From an uncultured Porphyromonadaceae bacterium (GTDB lineage: Bacteria > Bacteroidota > Bacteroidia > Bacteroidales > Muribaculaceae): DNA of 64,000 nucleotides. Shown piece by piece: positions 29,794 through 61,161 of this stretch. Each line of letters begins with the position of its first letter. The stretch's first letter is position 1. The stretch lies in NCBI GenBank assembly GCA_947649495.1, contig CANSRU010000002.1:62001-126000 (forward strand). Direction: 5' to 3'. The notes beneath the pieces were generated by a model that did no database searches, was not told where the DNA came from, and saw nothing but the letters and a program-made list of their open reading frames with translations. The position numbers and the translations under genes are program-made.

Positions 29794-30702
29794 GGGAGAA
29801 GACACCTCCTTCATCTCGGCAATTTCCACAAAATAGACCGAAGCCACAATCATGGCCATGGAAAGAATCTGCCACCAGCTGAACTGGTCCTGACCGAGAA
29901 TATAGCTTACCACAGCCGCTACTATAAGAATGAGATATCCATAAAGAGCAACCACCGTGGCCGACAGATTACGCAACCCGACAGTGAGAAGCAGATAGCT
30001 TATGGATGTAGGGAATAAAAGAACAAACATAAGCGTAAGCATAGGCACAGAGAACAGACCCGATGAAAGAACCGGAGCATACCAACCTGTAGAACATATC
30101 ATTACAACAGCCGAAAATGCACCACCGAGAAAGGTCCATTTCAGCACAGTAATCTTATCGACAGTAAGTAACATCCTCTTTTCAATCACCAGATACACAG
30201 CATAGAGCAGCGACGACAACAAACAGTATAAACTTCCCAGCAACGGATCGGACGCCACATCGCCCGCTTTCTGTGTGGCCACTATTATAAGCGCACCTCC
30301 CAGACCGAGGACTATGCCTGTCACCTTACGCACAGTGACCTTTTCGTGCATGAACAGCACGCATATCAGGAACACCCATATAGGCTGCATGCTTATGAAT
30401 ATGGACGATGTGATAGGTGTTGTGTAGGTAAGTCCCATGAGAAGAGCGAACATATACCCGAACACACATACAGCTCCGAGAAAAAAGAGAGCCGCCCGCT
30501 GCTTCAGCGTAGAGGTGACACCATGTTTTTCAGTGAATATTCCCGCAGTCCAGAAAAACAAAGTCCCGAACACCAGCCGCAACACCACTCCCGAATAAGC
30601 CGACATCCATGCCGGCAACAGATAGCGCAAGGCATTTTCGTTGAGTCCCGAAAATGTCTTTGACACAAACATGGCCACATTGCCCTTTATCCTGCCGTTC
30701 AT
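29764..30702 (-). CDS. EamA/DMT-family transporter
   Basis: This protein of about 312 residues has ten membrane segments in two EamA repeats. The second repeat has W-K-W-T-F-L and G-Y-L-I-L-I-V-A-A-V-V. It resembles drug/metabolite exporters of unknown substrate. The start at 30702 (MNGRIKG) is preferred to ATG 30729. It is the only minus-strand gene between 9.8 and 44.8 kb, and its stop lies 30 bp inside the convergent lipoprotein gene. Confidence 0.85.
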   Translation of the reverse strand: MNGRIKGNVAMFVSKTFSGLNENALRYLLPAWMSAYSGVVLRLVFGTLFFWTAGIFTEKHGVTSTLKQRAALFFLGAVCVFGYMFALLMGLTYTTPITSSIFISMQPIWVFLICVLFMHEKVTVRKVTGIVLGLGGALIIVATQKAGDVASDPLLGSLYCLLSSLLYAVYLVIEKRMLLTVDKITVLKWTFLGGAFSAVVMICSTGWYAPVLSSGLFSVPMLTLMFVLLFPTSISYLLLTVGLRNLSATVVALYGYLILIVAAVVSYILGQDQFSWWQILSMAMIVASVYFVEIAEMKEVSSPLSEPSSEQK

Positions 30703-36141: not shown

Positions 36142-36795
36142 ATGAAAGTTATAAATTTTGCCGATACACCCTCGTTGGTGAACCAATACATGGCCGAACT
36201 GCGCGATGTCAACATTCAGAAAGACATGCTCCGTTTCCGCCGTAATCTCGAACGTATAGGAGAAATAATGGCCTACGAGATAAGCAAGACCGTCAACTAT
36301 GCCACCGTAACGGTCGACACACCTCTTGCTCCGGCACAATGTAGCGTTCTTGATGAAAAAATAGTGCTTGCCACAATATTCCGTGCCGGCGTACCATTTC
36401 ACAAGGGATTCCTCGACTATTTCGACCATGCTGAAAACGCTTTCGTATCGGCTTATCGTAAATATAAAGAGAAAGAAAATTTCGATGTGTTCATTGAATA
36501 CATCGCATCACCCCGAATCGATGGAAAGACACTTATAATAGCCGACCCGATGCTTGCCACCGGAGCTTCAATGGAATTGAGCTACCGCGCCCTCCTCACA
36601 AAAGGCGAGCCTGAAAAGATACACGTGGCATCCGTTATAGCATCTCAGACCGCCATCGATTATATAAAATCAACATTCCCCGACGCAAAGACTACAATCT
36701 GGGCAGGCGCCATAGACAATGAGATAAATTCCCACTCCTACATAGTGCCAGGTCTCGGTGATGCAGGCGATCTTGCCTACGGAATCAAGGAATAA
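36142..36795 (+). CDS. upp: Uracil phosphoribosyltransferase
   Basis: This 217-residue enzyme makes UMP from uracil and PRPP. The PRPP loop is A-D-P-M-L-A-T-G-A-S, and the C-terminal uracil-binding A-G-A-I-D-N-E-I-N-S-H-S-Y-I-V-P-G-L-G-D-A-G-D matches the family. It has its own promoter and terminator, so it is monocistronic. It is the last gene to the left of the putative replication origin. Confidence 0.95.
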   Translation: MKVINFADTPSLVNQYMAELRDVNIQKDMLRFRRNLERIGEIMAYEISKTVNYATVTVDTPLAPAQCSVLDEKIVLATIFRAGVPFHKGFLDYFDHAENAFVSAYRKYKEKENFDVFIEYIASPRIDGKTLIIADPMLATGASMELSYRALLTKGEPEKIHVASVIASQTAIDYIKSTFPDAKTTIWAGAIDNEINSHSYIVPGLGDAGDLAYGIKE

Positions 36796-36831
36796 TATAC
36801 CTCACATACATAAAACATCTGCTTCACACAG

Positions 36832-36860
36832 CGGCTGCCACTACCATGGCAGCCGTTTTT
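36832..36860 (+). terminator. Rho-independent terminator after upp
   Basis: A perfect 9-bp stem (CGGCTGCCA/TGGCAGCCG) with a six-base loop is followed by TTTTT. Confidence 0.9.
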
Positions 36861-37291
36861 CACTATATATAAACACTGTTCAAAAGTATGTTGATAACCG
36901 TAAATAAGAATAGGGTAAGTTTCAATAAATATATTTGGATTTAACATACGGCACTCATACTAATCATTACAGGCATTCACGCAAATAAGTAAACCATAAC
37001 ATATAACATGGTTTTTAACTGCGTTTTCTATAGTTATTGATGTGGAATGTGGAGGAAAGTTGTTAACTTTGCATATTATTGACAGCATGTTAATAACAAT
37101 GGTAACTACCTGAAATGCAATATTAAAAGATGTTGATAAGCGGTAAACAACCATTTTTCACTAATCAATAACTTAATGTGAAAGAAATAAGCCGGAAAGT
37201 TATCACAGCTATTAACATCCACTATTGTTACTATTGAATTTTAATTTTTTGAAAAACTTATTTTTTAATATAAAGATATGAATGTGGATAA
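36861..37291. other. Candidate chromosomal replication origin (oriC)
   Basis: This is the longest AT-rich gap in the window that also lies at a change in strand composition. It holds two exact copies of TGTTGATAA (36889-36897 and 37131-37139), one TGTTAATAA (37088-37096) and, in the first codons of nadA, TGTGGATAA (37283-37291), a perfect DnaA box. The first two differ from that consensus in one position. All are in the same direction. A near-pure A/T stretch at 37231-37275 could be the unwinding element. The plus strand is C/A-rich to the left and G/T-rich to the right. A TAACTTTG box for nadA lies inside. Confidence 0.6.
37064..37071 (+). promoter_or_regulatory. Promoter -7 box for nadA
   Basis: TAACTTTG is a perfect -7 box. 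It is 207 bases before ATG 37278, so the leader is long and overlaps the putative origin. Confidence 0.5.
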
Positions 37292-38258
37292 AGGCTATGT
37301 GGATGCTCCCGTAGATGATGATATGGACTTGAAAAAAGAGATAATCAGGCTCAAGAAAGAAAAAGGTGCCGTGATTATGGCCCACTATTATCAGAATGGG
37401 GATATTCAGGACGTGGCCGACTACATAGGCGATTCACTTGCCCTTGCCAGGATAGCTGAAGAGATAGAGGCTCCAGTCATAGTGATGTGCGGTGTTCATT
37501 TTATGGGCGAGACAGCCAAGATACTTTGTCCTGATAAAAAGGTGCTCATTCCTGACCTGAATGCAGGATGCTCGCTTGCCGACAGCTGTCCGGCCGACCG
37601 GTTTGCCGAATTTATCAAGGAACATCCCGGGCATACCGTGATAAGCTATGTCAACACCACAGCCAAAGTGAAGGCTCTTACAGATGTGGTGGTGACTTCA
37701 GGAAATTCCAGGGAGATTGTGGAGAGTTTTCCGGTGGATACTAAAATAATATTCGGTCCCGACAGGAATCTCGGCAATTATATAAATTCCCGGACCGGAA
37801 GAAACATGGTGCTTTGGGATGGAGCATGTCACGTTCACGAGCAATTCTCGTTGGAAAAGATTTTAGAGCTTAAAAAAGAGCATCCCGAGGCTAAGATACT
37901 CGTGCATCCCGAATGTAAGAAACCTCTTCAGCTTATAGCCGACAAGATTGGTTCTACCGCTGTATTGTTGAAATATGCGTGTGAGAGCGATTGCAAGGAA
38001 TTCATAGTGGTGACAGAAGCCGGCATACTGCATGAGATGCGCCGTCTGTGTCCCGACAAGACTTTTATTCCGGCTCCGCCTGAGGACAGCACATGTGCAT
38101 GCAACGATTGTTCGTTTATGAAGTTGAACACTCTTGAAAAGCTATACAATTGCCTTAAATACGGACAGCCCGAAGTGACGGTCGATGCTTCACTTATGGA
38201 GAAGGCGCGCAAGCCTATAGAACGCATGCTGGAACTGTCGAAAAATATAAAGAAGTAA
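37278..38258 (+). CDS. nadA: Quinolinate synthase
   Basis: This 326-residue enzyme makes quinolinate from iminoaspartate and dihydroxyacetone phosphate with a 4Fe-4S cluster. The three cluster Cys lie in A-G-C-S-L-A-D-S-C, V-H-P-E-C-K-K-P and C-A-C-N-D-C-S-F-M-K-L-N. A-H-Y-Y-Q near the start and the C-terminal L-E-K-L-Y block are family marks. No nadB or nadC is adjacent. The first codons contain a perfect DnaA-box sequence. Confidence 0.95.
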   Translation: MNVDKGYVDAPVDDDMDLKKEIIRLKKEKGAVIMAHYYQNGDIQDVADYIGDSLALARIAEEIEAPVIVMCGVHFMGETAKILCPDKKVLIPDLNAGCSLADSCPADRFAEFIKEHPGHTVISYVNTTAKVKALTDVVVTSGNSREIVESFPVDTKIIFGPDRNLGNYINSRTGRNMVLWDGACHVHEQFSLEKILELKKEHPEAKILVHPECKKPLQLIADKIGSTAVLLKYACESDCKEFIVVTEAGILHEMRRLCPDKTFIPAPPEDSTCACNDCSFMKLNTLEKLYNCLKYGQPEVTVDASLMEKARKPIERMLELSKNIKK

Positions 38259-55714: not shown

Positions 55715-56425
55715 ATGCCAGTAATTGGAAATACAACAACCGATGCAGAGAATCGACTTTTGATAGTCGATGCCGAGACCATGATGTGCGAACTGATGCA
55801 GTTCAAACTTGAGGATGAAGGATTCAAGACCGTGGTGATGCACGACGGTCACGAAGCCCTTAATCTTGATGTGGCGTCTTTCGGGCTTATACTTGTCGAC
55901 CTGATGGGGCGTGAATTCGATGGATTCAAGTTCACCCAGTCAGTAAAAAGCAATCCCGGTACATATAATGTGCCGGTTATAATAATATCATCGCGCACTT
56001 CGGAAGATGATGTCGTAAACGGACTCGATGCCGGAGCCGATGATTTCGTGAGCAAGCCATTCTCTATGCGCGAACTGATAGCGCGCATACGGTCGGTGAT
56101 GCGGCGTAAGCGTATGATGAGCGCGCGCCGCGCTTTCAATGTGATACGTTTCCGCGAGCTTGTGCTCGACATGGGGTCGGGCAGTCTCACCATTGCCGGA
56201 GAGCCTGTTTCGATATCGCGTACGGAGTATCTTATCCTGGCCATGTTCCTGCGGCAGAAGGGTCACTTCTTCGACCGCTCCCAGATAAAGTCGGAGGCCT
56301 GGCAGGATGAGGAGGTGAGCGACAGAGCCGTGGATACCACCATATCGCGTCTGCGCAAGAAACTCGGCGAATATGGCCAGCAGATAGTCAACCGTCAGGG
56401 ATTCGGTTACGGTTTTCTGGAGTAA
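55715..56425 (+). CDS. Orphan OmpR-family response regulator
   Basis: This 236-residue protein has an N-terminal receiver domain (L-L-I-V-D-A-E with acidic pocket, the phosphorylated Asp in L-I-L-V-D-L-M-G, the Lys in F-V-S-K-P-F) and a C-terminal winged helix (V-S-I-S-R-T-E-Y-L-I-L and V-D-T-T-I-S-R-L-R-K-K-L). No histidine kinase is adjacent, so its partner is unknown. It lies 106 bp after the Na/Pi transporter, but has its own promoter. The rnhB gene follows 9 bp later and may be co-transcribed. Confidence 0.92.
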   Translation: MPVIGNTTTDAENRLLIVDAETMMCELMQFKLEDEGFKTVVMHDGHEALNLDVASFGLILVDLMGREFDGFKFTQSVKSNPGTYNVPVIIISSRTSEDDVVNGLDAGADDFVSKPFSMRELIARIRSVMRRKRMMSARRAFNVIRFRELVLDMGSGSLTIAGEPVSISRTEYLILAMFLRQKGHFFDRSQIKSEAWQDEEVSDRAVDTTISRLRKKLGEYGQQIVNRQGFGYGFLE

Positions 56426-56434
56426 ACCACTGCC

Positions 56435-57037
56435 ATGCCATTGCTTCCCAATTGTAATACATGTGGCATAAACGAAGCCGGCTGCGATGAAGCCGGACGT
56501 GGCTGTCTGGCAGGTCCGGTATATGCAGCGGCCGTGATTTTGCCCGACGATTTCCATCATCAATGGCTCAACGATTCCAAGCAGCTCACCGAGGCGCGCA
56601 GGGATAAACTGCGTCCTATAATAGAAGCTGAGGCTGTGGCGTGGGCCATCGGTGTGGTCAGCGCCGAAGAGATAGACCGTATCAATATCCTCAATGCTTC
56701 CATTCTCGCCATGCACCGGGCGCTCGACGGGCTGGATGTGCGTCCCGGAGCGGTTATTGTCGACGGCAACAGGTTCAAGCCGTATGGCGAAATACCATGG
56801 ACCACATTTGTCAAGGGCGACGGGCGCTTCGGAAATATTGCCGCGGCCTCTATTCTTGCAAAGACCCATCGGGATGAATATATGCGTGGATTGCACAAGG
56901 AGTTCCCGATGTACGCGTGGGATGTCAACAAGGGCTATCCCACTCCCGCCCACCGTGCGGCAATCGCCGCCAACGGCCCATGTGTTCACCACCGCATGTC
57001 GTTCAGACTGCTTGACAATCAGCTCACGCTGTTCTGA
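56435..57037 (+). CDS. rnhB: Ribonuclease HII
   Basis: This 200-residue enzyme cuts RNA in RNA-DNA hybrids and removes single ribonucleotides. The acid-rich [14 protein letters not shown] motif, [15 protein letters not shown] and A-K-T-H-R-D-E-Y-M supply the metal-binding residues. It is convergent with the LD-carboxypeptidase gene, with only 6 bp between the stops. Confidence 0.95.
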
Positions 57038-57043
57038 TGGTGG

Positions 57044-57949
57044 TTATTGGCTTATTGTAACTCCGCTGTCGGTTATCTCGAGTGTGACCGGAGCGCTCAC
57101 CATCAAAGGGATGTTGTGGCTTACATGTCCTACCGGAACATCAAATGCCACAGGATAACCGTAGTCAGCCACCATGTCGCGGATCATATCTTCCATAGAG
57201 GCATTGTCGGCATCGGGCGAATATTCCGTGAAGCTGCCCACGATAAGTCCGGCAAGATTTTTCAAGGCTCTGCTAAGTTTCAGCTGATACATCATGCGCT
57301 CTATTTTGTAAATAGGCTCAGACACATCTTCTATAAAAAGCACCGAACCCGGATGGAACACATCGAACGGAGTGCCGATAAGTCCGGCAAGCACCGCCAG
57401 ATTGCCACCTACGAGCATACCGGTTGCTGTGCCCGGCCGGTTGTAGGGATGCGGGTCCATGGTGTATCTCACATGCTTTCCGCGGAGCATGTCAAATAAA
57501 GCGAGTGAATCGTCGTCCTTGCCCTCGTTGCTGCCTATATGCTTTGCCATCGGGCCGTGGATACTTGCTATTCCGTGTGCGTTCATCAGGGCATGTAGCG
57601 CTGATATGTCGCTGAATCCCACTATCCATTTCGCGTTATCGCGTAGGGGTAGACGGTCGAGGCGTTCCAGAAGGTGCACCACTCCATATCCTCCTCGGGA
57701 GCACAGTATGGCCTTCGTATCAGGGTCGAGCAGGGCTTTCTCAAGGTCGCTGTAGCGCTCATTGTCAGTGCCGCTGTATGTACCGTGCCTGCCGAATGTG
57801 TGGTCGGCCACATAGGGATCCCACCCCATGTCGCGCAGCACAGCCATGGCATTGTAAACATTCTGCGGGCGTGCTATTCCTGCCGGAGAGAGCATCGCTA
57901 TTCTGTCGCCCGGTTTCAAAGGGGCCGGTATTATCACCTCTTCGTCCAT
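57044..57949 (-). CDS. LD-carboxypeptidase (S66 family)
   Basis: This 301-residue protein has S-R-G-G-Y-G (nucleophile Ser), the Glu in F-I-E-D-V-S-E-P, and P-V-G-H-V-S-H-N with the catalytic His. S66 enzymes trim the tetrapeptide stems of recycled murein in the cytosol. It is the last gene of the trmB-apbC-radical SAM operon, 13 bp downstream of the radical SAM gene. Confidence 0.92.
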   Translation of the reverse strand: MDEEVIIPAPLKPGDRIAMLSPAGIARPQNVYNAMAVLRDMGWDPYVADHTFGRHGTYSGTDNERYSDLEKALLDPDTKAILCSRGGYGVVHLLERLDRLPLRDNAKWIVGFSDISALHALMNAHGIASIHGPMAKHIGSNEGKDDDSLALFDMLRGKHVRYTMDPHPYNRPGTATGMLVGGNLAVLAGLIGTPFDVFHPGSVLFIEDVSEPIYKIERMMYQLKLSRALKNLAGLIVGSFTEYSPDADNASMEDMIRDMVADYGYPVAFDVPVGHVSHNIPLMVSAPVTLEITDSGVTISQ

Positions 57950-57962
57950 TGGTATATCAAAT

Positions 57963-58742
57963 TTAACCGCTTACCTGAACATCGATTCCTTCGCGCCGTA
58001 TCCGTTCGGCCACTGCCTCCAGTTCCTCGCGCGGCACCTTTCTGAGATTCTCGGCCGGCGTTTTTCTGTCGATGGAATAAAGCATCACCTCTTTCGGATT
58101 TATCTTACGGTAGGCGGCTATCAAGGCGTCTATCTCAGCGGGGGTGGTGTTGTCAATGGCTGAGCCGTTGTATTCCCCTCTCAGCAGCATGGTCTGCACT
58201 ATGCATTGTCCACCGAAGTCCGCTATCATATCTATAACCTTTTCAGTGGTGAACGATGGCGACACCGGGCGGTCTATGGCACGCATGGTGCTTTCTATGG
58301 CCGAGTCGAGCTTGAGTATGTTATTGTCGACAAGTCTGAGCGCTTCCGCCACATCCGGACGGTCGAGGCGTGTGGAATTGCTGAGCACACTTATCTTCAC
58401 CTCAGGATAATATTTGTCGCGCAGAGCTATGGTGTCGGTGATGATTCCGAGGAAATCAGGATGCATGGTGGGTTCGCCGTTACCAGAGAATGTGATTACA
58501 TCAAGCCGTTCGTTATGCGCCTTCATGTCGCTGAGCCGCTTTTCAAGCAGTCTGTACACCTCCTCGCGTGGCGGCAGGCCGGCCTTACCCGGACCCTGGG
58601 CGTTGAATCCCGCCTCGCAGTAAAGGCAGTCGAAAGAGCATACCTTTCCATCTCGTGGCGACAGATTGACTCCGAGCGACGTGCCGAGACGCCGGGAGTG
58701 TATCGGCCCGAAGACCGTGTCGTGAAAGAGTATTGTCTGCAT
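57963..58742 (-). CDS. Radical SAM protein
   Basis: This 259-residue protein has C-S-F-D-C-L-Y-C, the C-x3-C-x2-C that holds the 4Fe-4S cluster, and F-S-G-N-G-E-P-T-M-H-P. The N terminus (F-G-P-I-H-S-R-R-L-G-T-S-L-G-V-N) is typical of a family of wybutosine- or moaA-like radical SAM proteins of unknown reaction. It is located between an ATP-binding Fe-S scaffold gene and the LD-carboxypeptidase gene. Confidence 0.88.
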   Translation of the reverse strand: MQTILFHDTVFGPIHSRRLGTSLGVNLSPRDGKVCSFDCLYCEAGFNAQGPGKAGLPPREEVYRLLEKRLSDMKAHNERLDVITFSGNGEPTMHPDFLGIITDTIALRDKYYPEVKISVLSNSTRLDRPDVAEALRLVDNNILKLDSAIESTMRAIDRPVSPSFTTEKVIDMIADFGGQCIVQTMLLRGEYNGSAIDNTTPAEIDALIAAYRKINPKEVMLYSIDRKTPAENLRKVPREELEAVAERIRREGIDVQVSG

Positions 58743-58759
58743 TGTTTCCCCGAATTGGT

Positions 58760-59863
58760 TTATTTGCGTGTCACATTCACCTTTACCGTGGGAGGCAGCT
58801 GGCTGTTACGTTCGTTGACGGCATCAATCACCTCATGGGCCAGATGCATGAAAGCATGTCCGGTAATTGTATCTTCGAGGGCTATGGGATGACCGCCGTC
58901 GCCGCCGTCGCATATAGAACCTACCACCGGAATCTGGGCAAGGAGACGTATGCCAAGCTCCTTGGCAAGTTCCACTCCACCTTCGCGGCCGAATATGTAG
59001 TAGCGTTCGTCAGGATGAATTTCAGGTGTGAACCAGGCCATGTTCTCCACCAGTCCGAGCACCGGCACATTCACTTTGTCGCCGGTGAACATGGCTATGC
59101 CTTTGCGAGCGTCGGCCAGAGCCACCTGCTGCGGCGTGCTCACCACCACCACTCCGGTCATGGCAAGTGTCTGAACCAATGTAAGGTGGATGTCGCTCGT
59201 TCCCGGAGGCATGTCTATCAGGAAATAGTCGAGTTCACCCCAGTCGGCCTCCTCTATAAGCTGCCGCAAGGCGTTCGACGCCATGCTTCCGCGCCATAGC
59301 ACAGGAGCGTTCTTGTCCACGAGAAATCCTATTGACAGCACTTTGACGCCGTAGCGTTCAGCCGGGATTATCAGTTGGCGTCCATCCACTTCGTGCATAT
59401 AAAGTGTTGTATCCTCAAGACCGAACATCTTAGGTACCGACGGACCGAATATGTCGGCGTCGAGCAGCCCCACTTTATATCCTTCGCGGGCCAGAGCCAC
59501 GGCCAGATTGCTTGCCACCGTGCTTTTGCCTACGCCACCTTTGCCCGACGAAACTCCAACAATGTTCTTCACACCCGGAAGCACCGGAGCCTTTTCTGCA
59601 GCAGGAGCGGCCGGTGTCTGGGCGTTGACCGTCACCTTAACGTCGGGCGATATATAAGTATGTATGGCTGTCTCGGCCGATTTGAGCAGCGACTTCATGA
59701 ACGGGTCGGTGCTTTTGGCGAATATTATTGAGAAACTCACCCGGTCGCCATCTATGCGTATGTCGTCGGCCACCATGTCGAGTTCCACTATGTTTTTGCC
59801 GTTGCCGGGATAGCGCACGTGTGTCAGTGCGTCGAGTATAAGCTGAGGATACAGACGTTCCAT
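58760..59863 (-). CDS. apbC: Mrp/ApbC-family Fe-S carrier ATPase without CxxC
   Basis: This 367-residue protein has an N-terminal MIP18/DUF59 domain, then a deviant Walker A (S-S-G-K-G-G-V-G-K-S), A-D-I-F-G-P-S and D-M-P-P-G-T-S-D. These are the marks of the Mrp/NBP35 family, which carries or inserts Fe-S clusters. The C-terminal C-x2-C that bridges a cluster in many members is absent: after E-N-M-A-W-F the sequence reads T-P-E-I-H-P, and the only Cys is in S-I-C-D-G-G. This may be the normal Bacteroidota form. It overlaps trmB by one base. Confidence 0.92.
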   Translation of the reverse strand: MERLYPQLILDALTHVRYPGNGKNIVELDMVADDIRIDGDRVSFSIIFAKSTDPFMKSLLKSAETAIHTYISPDVKVTVNAQTPAAPAAEKAPVLPGVKNIVGVSSGKGGVGKSTVASNLAVALAREGYKVGLLDADIFGPSVPKMFGLEDTTLYMHEVDGRQLIIPAERYGVKVLSIGFLVDKNAPVLWRGSMASNALRQLIEEADWGELDYFLIDMPPGTSDIHLTLVQTLAMTGVVVVSTPQQVALADARKGIAMFTGDKVNVPVLGLVENMAWFTPEIHPDERYYIFGREGGVELAKELGIRLLAQIPVVGSICDGGDGGHPIALEDTITGHAFMHLAHEVIDAVNERNSQLPPTVKVNVTRK

Positions 59864-60648
59864 TAATTCTGATGTTTTATCGTTACTTTAGGATTACACA
59901 ATTCGGGGCATTGAAGTTCACCGCGCGAGAAACTTCGATAGGTGTCGTGCTCTATTTCCACCTCGGGTTCGGAGAGCGGGGTGTGGCGGTCGAGCAGAAA
60001 CGATAGGTATTTTATGGTGAGCCCTCGGTCGAGCCACTGCTGCTCGTAGAAGGTGCGTATGCCCAGTATGTCATCGGCATGCTCCGATGCGTAGAGGTTG
60101 TCGGTGTCTGCCAGTATCTCAAGCCCGTTATGCTTGGCCATTATGCGGGTATATGTGTAGAGAAACGGACTGTCTGACTTTAGATTGATTCTGCCACCGT
60201 CGGCCATCACCTTGCGGTATAGTTCCATGAATCTGGTGGAAGTAAGGCGTTTGCGCACCTTCTTCATCTGCGGGTCGGGAAATGTAATCCATATCTCACT
60301 CACTTCTCCAGATTCGAAGAACCATGGCAAGAGCTCTATGTCGGTGCGCAGGAACGCCACATTGGGCAGCGAAAGCATGCGGGCCTCCTTGGCTCCGGTC
60401 CACATGCGGGCGCCTTTTATATCAATGCCTATATAATTGCGGTCGGGAAAAGCCTTTGCCAAGCCTACAGTGTACTCGCCTTTGCCACAGCCCAGCTCAA
60501 GCACTATCGGATTGTCGTTGTGGAAAAAATCGGAGTGCCAGCGACCCTTCATCGGGAATCCCTCCTTCTGAAGCTCGGCCCAGGGATATTGAAACACAAA
60601 GTCAATCTCCTCCATCTCCTTAAATTTCTTTAGCTTGTTCTTTCCCAT
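59863..60648 (-). CDS. trmB: tRNA (guanine-N7)-methyltransferase
   Basis: This 261-residue enzyme methylates G46 of t[14 protein letters not shown] is the SAM loop, and [16 protein letters not shown] is the family signature. The C-terminal 50 residues extend beyond the core fold. It leads the operon with apbC, the radical SAM gene and the LD-carboxypeptidase gene, starting from a -7 box at 60672-60679. Confidence 0.94.
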
Positions 60649-60671
60649 ATATGGTTATGTATTGTTTGGTG

Positions 60672-60679
60672 CAAAGTTA
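60672..60679 (-). promoter_or_regulatory. Promoter -7 box for the trmB operon
   Basis: Read on the minus strand the sequence is TAACTTTG, 24 bases before ATG 60648. It is one arm of an inverted repeat whose other arm is the rbfA promoter box at 60703-60710. Confidence 0.6.
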
Positions 60680-60702
60680 CACAGATTTCGGCAAATTCTG
60701 CG

Positions 60703-60710
60703 TAACTTTG
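60703..60710 (+). promoter_or_regulatory. Promoter -7 box for rbfA
   Basis: TAACTTTG, 67 bases before ATG 60778. The two divergent boxes are identical and face away from each other. Confidence 0.6.
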
Positions 60711-60777
60711 TGAGCCAATAGCCGTTTCCCGATGTTATAATTTGGAAATGTCTAATCAATAAAAAATATAAACGATT

Positions 60778-61161
60778 ATGGAAAGTACCCGTCAGGCCAA
60801 GATAGCCAGATTGCTTCAGAAAGAACTGAGTGAGATATTCCGTCGCCAGACGGCCAAGACCCACGGTGTGCTCGTGTCGGTAAGCGCCGTGAGGGTGTCG
60901 CCCGATTTGAGTATTGCACGCGCATATCTGTCGGTATTTCCCTCGGCTAAAGCCCAGGAGATGATAGAGAGCATAAACAAGAGTGCCAAAACCATCCGTT
61001 ACGAACTTGCGCAGATTGTGCGTCATCAGTTGAGGAAAACTCCTGAGCTGGCATTCTATCTCGACGATTCGCTCGACTATATAGAAAACATTGACAATCT
61101 GCTCGGAGCCGATGCCAAGGCTCATCCTCAGACTCCCGATACTGCCGGAACTGAAGAGTAA
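60778..61161 (+). CDS. rbfA: 30S ribosome-binding factor RbfA
   Basis: This 127-residue protein fits RbfA: R-Q-A-K-I-A-R-L-L-Q-K-E-L-S-E-I-F near the start, L-V-S-V-S-A-V-R-V-S-P-D-L-S-I-A-R-A-Y-L-S-V-F-P in the middle, and F-Y-L-D-D-S-L-D-Y near the end. It assists 30S subunit maturation. It lies 35 bp before an ABC permease gene, as in other Bacteroidales. Confidence 0.93.
   Translation: MESTRQAKIARLLQKELSEIFRRQTAKTHGVLVSVSAVRVSPDLSIARAYLSVFPSAKAQEMIESINKSAKTIRYELAQIVRHQLRKTPELAFYLDDSLDYIENIDNLLGADAKAHPQTPDTAGTEE

Follow-up and report, generated by a model that had tools for sequence, protein, structure and literature searches.

A candidate chromosomal replication origin beside nadA in an uncultured Muribaculaceae bacterium, with counterparts in other Bacteroidales

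Does the intergenic gap between upp and nadA, in the draft genome of an uncultured Muribaculaceae bacterium, contain the chromosomal replication origin (oriC)? The window, which is the whole stretch of DNA analysed, comprises 64,000 nucleotides (C2:62001-126000) of this draft (G000; 2,447,697 bases in 34 contigs). An earlier note, made from the letters of the window, had proposed an origin in this gap from a switch in strand composition, A+T richness and DnaA-like boxes, and had remarked that dnaA is not next to oriC in many Bacteroidota. The remark holds for this genome, in which the one dnaA found is located on contig C1 at 263361 (approximately 0.26 Mb in), not adjacent to the candidate oriC. 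The same rule is stated in PMC4755523 which, citing DoriC, describes oriC as commonly far from dnaA in Bacteroidota. In that paper, the oriC of Prevotella intermedia OMA14 is predicted from a GC-skew transition and several DnaA boxes, far from dnaA, and this kind of origin is therefore already known. The Porphyromonas gingivalis maps of PMC5771137 are drawn with oriC at dnaA, which is either at odds with the phylum rule or a drawing convention.

The cumulative GC skew of the 64-kb window has its minimum at base 37007, inside the gap. In 2-kb steps, the skew is negative from approximately 2 kb up to 37 kb, where it turns positive and stays so until approximately 56 kb. Among hand-picked ORFs, the third-codon skew, read in plus-strand letters, is -0.28 to the left of the gap (13 plus-strand ORFs), and to the right it is +0.10 in nine plus-strand ORFs and +0.26 in four minus-strand ORFs. 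Since this skew flips among ORFs of the same strand, gene direction is not the cause of the switch. The earlier note had reached the same view from hand counts, which proved exact on recount (line 30241-30300, C 22 and G 13; line 37681-37740, G 22 and C 7), and its description of the gap as very AT-rich agrees with the measured 70% A+T.

The skew of this genome was read over 464 kb of the 2.45 Mb (19%), corresponding to the window and to sampled stretches of the draft. In the right arm of the window, it drops to about zero over 5 kb (56000-61000), where the GC content is higher and long minus-strand ORFs are found. Near C2:20,000, about 79 kb to the left of the candidate origin, the skew changes from positive to negative, opposite to what is expected of an undisturbed arm; a mobile element, an inversion or a misjoin are possible causes. 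The change from positive to negative on C3, between 90,000 and 140,000, has the direction expected of a replication terminus and possibly marks it. Sign changes are also present in sampled stretches of C5. Scans of the window for tRNA and, at gathering scores, for Rfam families gave no match.

The features of the locus are collected in Table 1.

Table 1. Features of the candidate origin and of its flanking genes, in window coordinates.
Feature	Position	Strand	Basis
upp (uracil phosphoribosyltransferase), lineage-specific neighbour	36142..36795	+	family search
Candidate oriC: upp–nadA intergenic gap, 70% A+T, containing the window skew minimum (37007)	36796..37277		skew and base composition
DnaA-like outer box TGTTGATAA, about 390-400 bp before nadA, position kept in the family	36889..36897	+	exact 9-mer and alignment
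Conserved core, match of model R1 (C2:99053-99230)	37053..37230	+	103.6 bits, runner-up 19.7
Conserved block GTTGTTAACTTTGCA, family consensus GTTATTAACTTTGCA	37059..37073	+	alignment
Inverted box TTATTGACA, consensus TTATnAACA, 3 bp from the next box	37076..37084	-	alignment
DnaA-like box TGTTAATAA	37088..37096	+	exact 9-mer and alignment
DnaA-like box TGTTGATAA, second copy	37131..37139	+	exact 9-mer and alignment
Conserved block TCAATAAC, not a clear DnaA box	37165..37172	+	alignment
Degenerate box TTATCACAG, inside conserved AAAGTTATCA, upstream member of the tandem pair	37200..37208	-	alignment
Box CTATTAACA, consensus [CT]TATYAACA, downstream member of the tandem pair	37209..37217	-	alignment
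Spacer TCCA, from the last box to the trio-like tract	37218..37221		sequence
Trio-like tract, plus strand CTA-TTG-TTA-CTA-TTG, i.e. five 3'-NAN-5' on the minus strand, the first 3'-GAT-5'	37222..37236	-	periodicity
A+T-rich tract, probable duplex unwinding element	37237..37277		composition and stability
nadA (quinolinate synthase), neighbour conserved in many relatives	37278..38258	+	family search

The gap of this candidate oriC holds a cluster of DnaA boxes, predicted from the sequence, with an ordered spacing. The exact 9-mers listed in the earlier note are all present, TGTTGATAA and TGTTAATAA within the gap and TGTGGATAA at 37283 on the plus strand. The last one lies within the nadA coding sequence and was found in 1 of 30 family loci; it is therefore probably incidental and was rejected as a conserved part of the origin. 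The claim that all boxes run in the same direction applies to the exact 9-mers only, and fails for the array as a whole given the conserved inverted boxes at 37076-37084 and 37209-37217. The pattern TGTKRATAA is found at 139 places across the genome (73 forward and 66 reverse; reversed control pattern, 64 and 43) and five times in the window, where 2.5 are expected and 7 of 100 shuffles reach that count. Single 9-mers are therefore weak evidence, and the number of boxes alone, with the pattern so scattered through the genome, was discarded as not decisive. It is by their spacing, conserved across genera, that the boxes exceed chance.

The 30 best nadA loci of the family were compared, and the non-coding stretch of approximately 360 bp before nadA is alignable in most of them, its boxes lying near -400, -200 and -150; one locus that showed no boxes (L037) was left out of one alignment. 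The core of 23 of the 30 loci was aligned to give a sequence-only model (R1), the nadA adjacency of these 23 rows being by construction. Among the seven loci left out of the model, R1 matches L023, L025, L034 and L042; L028 was seen in the alignment only, and L037 is missed, although its genome (G002) has the element elsewhere. The genome under study contains one strong match, far above the next (Table 1), and thus a single strong copy. Two partial matches occur 3 kb apart in G082, which holds L039 (52.4 and 36.6 bits; C1:1376960-1380152), and two within 0.5 kb in L034 (51.7 and 39.6 bits). In genus g16, these nearby partial copies suggest a split or duplicated origin.

At E ≤1e-4 and with strict filters, R1 has matches in 27 of 159 genomes of the order, 24 of them outside the family and spread over 17 other families, and most of these matches cover nearly the whole model. 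In the 132 order genomes that gave no match under these filters, the element is missing or has diverged beyond the reach of R1. R2, a wider model built from 38 rows, has matches in 8 of 247 genomes of the phylum, five of which are outside the order but within the class. An exact pattern derived from the alignment was found in 115 stretches of named genomes. Among the 80 of these matches listed, 76 carry Bacteroidales-group labels, one is named 'bacterium UBA1790', and three are labelled Ruminococcus, Paenibacillus and Clostridiales, which are taken to be putative misnamed MAGs.

The skew around the element was compared, over at most 20 kb, in 20 of the 27 R1-matched genomes of the order search and in 20 family genomes, chosen mostly for their long contigs. 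Two loci cut short by contig ends (L162 and L173) were dropped, which left 38 copies to be set against 74 control stretches without the element. The skew is higher on the right than on the left at 36 of the 38 copies, versus 32 of the 74 controls. The cumulative minimum falls within 500 bp of the element in 17 copies and in one control, the p value of the rank test (1.6e-11) being optimistic since related genomes are not independent. Outside the family, the rise was observed in 16/16 copies and the minimum within 500 bp in 12/16, whereas inside the family the figures are 20/22 and 5/22. The sharp coincidence is therefore found mainly outside Muribaculaceae, and the pooled figure overstates the within-family case. 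In two genomes (G007 and G092), the skew falls at the element.

Three relatives allowed a longer view. In G082, assembled as one contig of 3.3 Mb, the skew of the sampled 20-kb stretches is negative in seven of the nine that precede the element and positive in 10 of the 11 that follow, with a local skew minimum at 1376725, 235 bp from the element (1376960). In G030 (C1, 2.27 Mb), nine of ten stretches before are negative, eight of ten after are positive, and the switch (1184465) is about 1.1 kb from the element (1183300). The skew of G099 is weak, with 8 of 11 stretches negative before (mean about -0.014) and seven of nine positive after (about +0.017; means calculated by hand), and its local minimum is 17 kb from the element. 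In the R2-matched genomes outside the order, the skew rises in all five and the minimum lies within 600 bp in four.

The gene nadA was detected in 132 of the 136 family genomes that are 95% or more complete. Its start is placed less than 500 bp downstream of the element, the gene pointing away from it, in 105 of the 115 named stretches; in two it lies about 1.57 kb downstream, and in eight it was not seen, four of these having less than 350 bp of room. On the other hand, upp is present within 1.5 kb upstream in 3/30 family loci and 2/115 named stretches, and was rejected as a conserved neighbour. The origin had been placed between both genes, and only nadA proved a lasting neighbour. The upstream neighbours vary and, judged by eye, include a SpoU-methylase-like protein, RpiB and others, with upp in the window. 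A scan with a single 60-residue fragment per protein gave a clear result for RpiB and a score below the curated cut-offs for the SpoU-like methylase.

The usual company of nadA makes a nadA promoter or operator the first alternative to be weighed, in which a repressor would bind the inverted repeats beside a promoter (TTAACTTTGC), the skew switch being coincidental. The distance and orientation of nadA in the 105 stretches fit this alternative, as do the inverted boxes 3 bp apart, which look operator-like. In addition, TAACTTTGC, in the 37059-37073 block, resembles the -7 promoter element of Bacteroidota. However, the core is present in three of the four family genomes without detected nadA (G099, E 1.9e-22; G107, 2.6e-18; G102, 2.2e-8), the fourth (G113) having an R1 match at E 0.003 only. 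In G099 and G107, the ORF next to the element is one other than nadA, that of G099 being perhaps spurious, and in G002 the element and nadA are on separate contigs (C17 and C11). A core that is kept without nadA is not simply a nadA operator. The skew rise at 36 of the 38 elements also speaks against coincidence, and so do the five weaker relatives outside the order, which all show the rise and have no nadA match in their loci of 3.1 kb each. An operator is accordingly a very improbable explanation, while a promoter within the origin is possible: the 37059-37073 block may be such a promoter or the site of another protein. From the sequences, the simplest reading of the neighbourhood is an ancestral oriC–nadA arrangement. 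Among the titles and abstracts listed in searches of the open literature, none links nadA or quinolinate synthase with oriC.

The segment 37200-37277, overlooked in the first reading, is a probable unwinding site. At the 3' side of the array, AAAGTTATCACAG-CTATTAACA precedes TCCA, CTATTGTTACTATTG and, up to nadA, A+T-rich DNA. The A+T content of 37232-37277 is 91%, and 37223-37282 ranks third in instability among the 60-mers of the window (fifth when lengths of 40 or 100 bases are compared); other gaps of the window are equally unstable, so that instability alone is not specific. The trinucleotide periodicity was examined in 62 rows, reduced to 56 by dropping six without a box (L175, L182, L156, L186, L172 and L036). 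After the last box, the lag-3 identity is 0.57 versus 0.345 in shuffles (sd 0.015; largest of 1000, 0.39), in rows that are related rather than independent and a few of which look misplaced (L177, L191, L170 and L174). A run of at least three NTN is present in 36 of the 56 rows, compared with 29% expected from shuffles, and absent from the other 20. An earlier form of the test, which picked the best-scoring box, had given a weak signal (run of at least three in 15/44 rows versus 29%; mean reached by 14 of 500 shuffles). This picker chose the wrong box in several rows; the last good box was adopted as reference after that weak result, and rows were added.

In PMC8287927, a basal unwinding system (BUS) is defined by at least three 3'-NAN-5' triplets and by a DnaA box no more than 16 bp away from them, which may deviate from the standard or species box at up to two positions. 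In the window, CTATTAACA has one mismatch to the species-type TTATYAACA and three to TTATCCACA, its spacer to the trios is 4 bp long, and five triplets are present. As in the Bacillus subtilis oriC (PMC8287927, PMC10721633), where tandem boxes, a GC-rich spacer and DnaA-trios form the BUS, tandem co-oriented boxes are followed by a short spacer, by more triplets than the minimum and by A+T-rich DNA. The box would also face the trios as in Bacillus, according to our reading of these papers. The locus differs from the B. subtilis BUS in that its boxes resemble TTATYAACA rather than TTATCCACA, its triplets do not follow a strict 3'-GAT-5' rule and dnaA is not adjacent. In many relatives, the plus-strand tract reads ATT, ATC or ATA, and consequently fits the general triplet pattern better than the strict 3'-GAT-5' consensus.

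The second alternative is a site that titrates DnaA or is regulated by it, with datA-like boxes or a DnaA-controlled promoter, while the true oriC would be elsewhere on the draft. DnaA-box clusters can regulate genes, and the skew was read for a minority of the draft. A second cluster, consisting of three DnaA-like boxes in 43 bp (C12:11301-11343, plus strand; two TTATTAACA and one TGTTGATAA), is located shortly before mutL and is the second-best R1 match of the genome, with 19.7 bits. The skew is constantly positive over the 20 kb read around it, and the cluster was rejected as a rival origin; its boxes may tie the expression of this mismatch-repair gene to DnaA, or titrate DnaA. The nadA element, in contrast, is positioned at a skew switch, and its trio-like and A+T-rich tracts fit unwinding. 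Titration or regulation is, if anything, slightly less credible than the operator. An assembly or rearrangement artefact, by which an inversion endpoint or misjoin would create the switch, is suggested by the draft state of the genome and by the sign changes in sampled C2, C3 and C5 stretches, and is nearly inconceivable in view of the skew rise at the element in other genomes (36/38) and of its place at the switch in the one-contig assembly of G082.

A further line of evidence concerns chromosome segregation sites. The query was a parS-like 16-mer, whose sole perfect match in the genome (C2:48004) is 51 kb away from the element. Of six relatives, five have a parS-like site on the same contig as the element, in genomes of 3.3-3.7 Mb and at a distance of 11 (G029), 13 (G081), 31 (G030), 43 (G082) and 116 kb (G099), G081/G082 and G029/G030 being same-genus pairs; in G002, both are on different contigs. 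Near-matches number no more than those of the reversed control (4 versus 8 in the genome under study, at ≤2 mismatches; 2 versus 7 in G099, at ≤1), and hence only the perfection and nearness of the site count as support.

Altogether, the gap is very probably the chromosomal replication origin. This reading is based on the local skew switch, the conservation with fixed spacing, the single strong copy, the architecture, the trinucleotide periodicity and the parS-like site nearby; the skew rise in relatives and the persistence without nadA in three of four genomes strengthen the proposal of the earlier note. The binding of DnaA to the boxes, the melting of the gap and the order of events can be inferred as follows. 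DnaA would bind the TTATYAACA-type array with its fixed spacing, formed by the outer box at 36889, the inverted pair (37076/37088), the box at 37131 and the tandem pair (37200/37209). Subsequently, a DnaA-ATP filament would start at the tandem pair and be guided over the 4-bp spacer onto the minus-strand trinucleotide repeats. The filament would then melt the A+T-rich tract that reaches the nadA start codon, the helicase would be loaded there and two forks would depart.

The genome encodes a full-length DnaA (TIGR00362, 444.5 bits), which by sequence is related to chain 8btg (E 7.4e-78), presumably the Bacillus subtilis DnaA. In the recognition-helix stretch of domain IV, it reads ARTHATVLYA compared with GRDHTTVIHA in 8btg. 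The presence of a full-length DnaA is shared with Escherichia coli and Bacillus; the exact boxes, on the other hand, differ from their box, TTATCCACA, by one or two bases that include the sixth. This sixth base leaves room for a matching shift in DnaA specificity, and our guess is that the altered stretch (THATV versus DHTTV) is matched to the TTATYAACA boxes. A search of the literature on DnaA recognition residues provided nothing useful.

Compared with the predicted origins of Bacteroidota (DoriC/Ori-Finder; PMC4755523), the locus is alike in that a clear GC-skew transition coincides with several DnaA boxes while dnaA is far away. It differs in that the oriC account of PMC4755523 names no neighbour gene, conserved element or unwinding module, whereas here a core, mostly linked to nadA, is aligned over 18 families. 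The species tested for a BUS, as given in the text of PMC8287927 on this point, are six and do not include Bacteroidota. For the Bacteroidales, and perhaps for the wider class, the balance tips slightly towards a single oriC inherited from a common ancestor, in which about seven boxes and blocks keep their order over approximately 180 bp. Such an origin would be anchored to nadA by descent and yet independent of it, with TTATYAACA boxes read by a DnaA of altered helix (THATV for DHTTV) and a variant BUS that tolerates 3'-TAN-5' triplets.

Among the common bacteria of the gut are Muribaculaceae and other Bacteroidales, many of which are known from drafts only. With an origin defined by sequence, which can be found without dnaA, draft genomes could be oriented and replication starts marked, growth rates could be estimated from the read depth of metagenomes, and plasmids carrying the origin could be tried. 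As the origin can be aligned across many families, it also allows a direct test, in Bacteroidota, of how well the code of DnaA boxes and trios is conserved.
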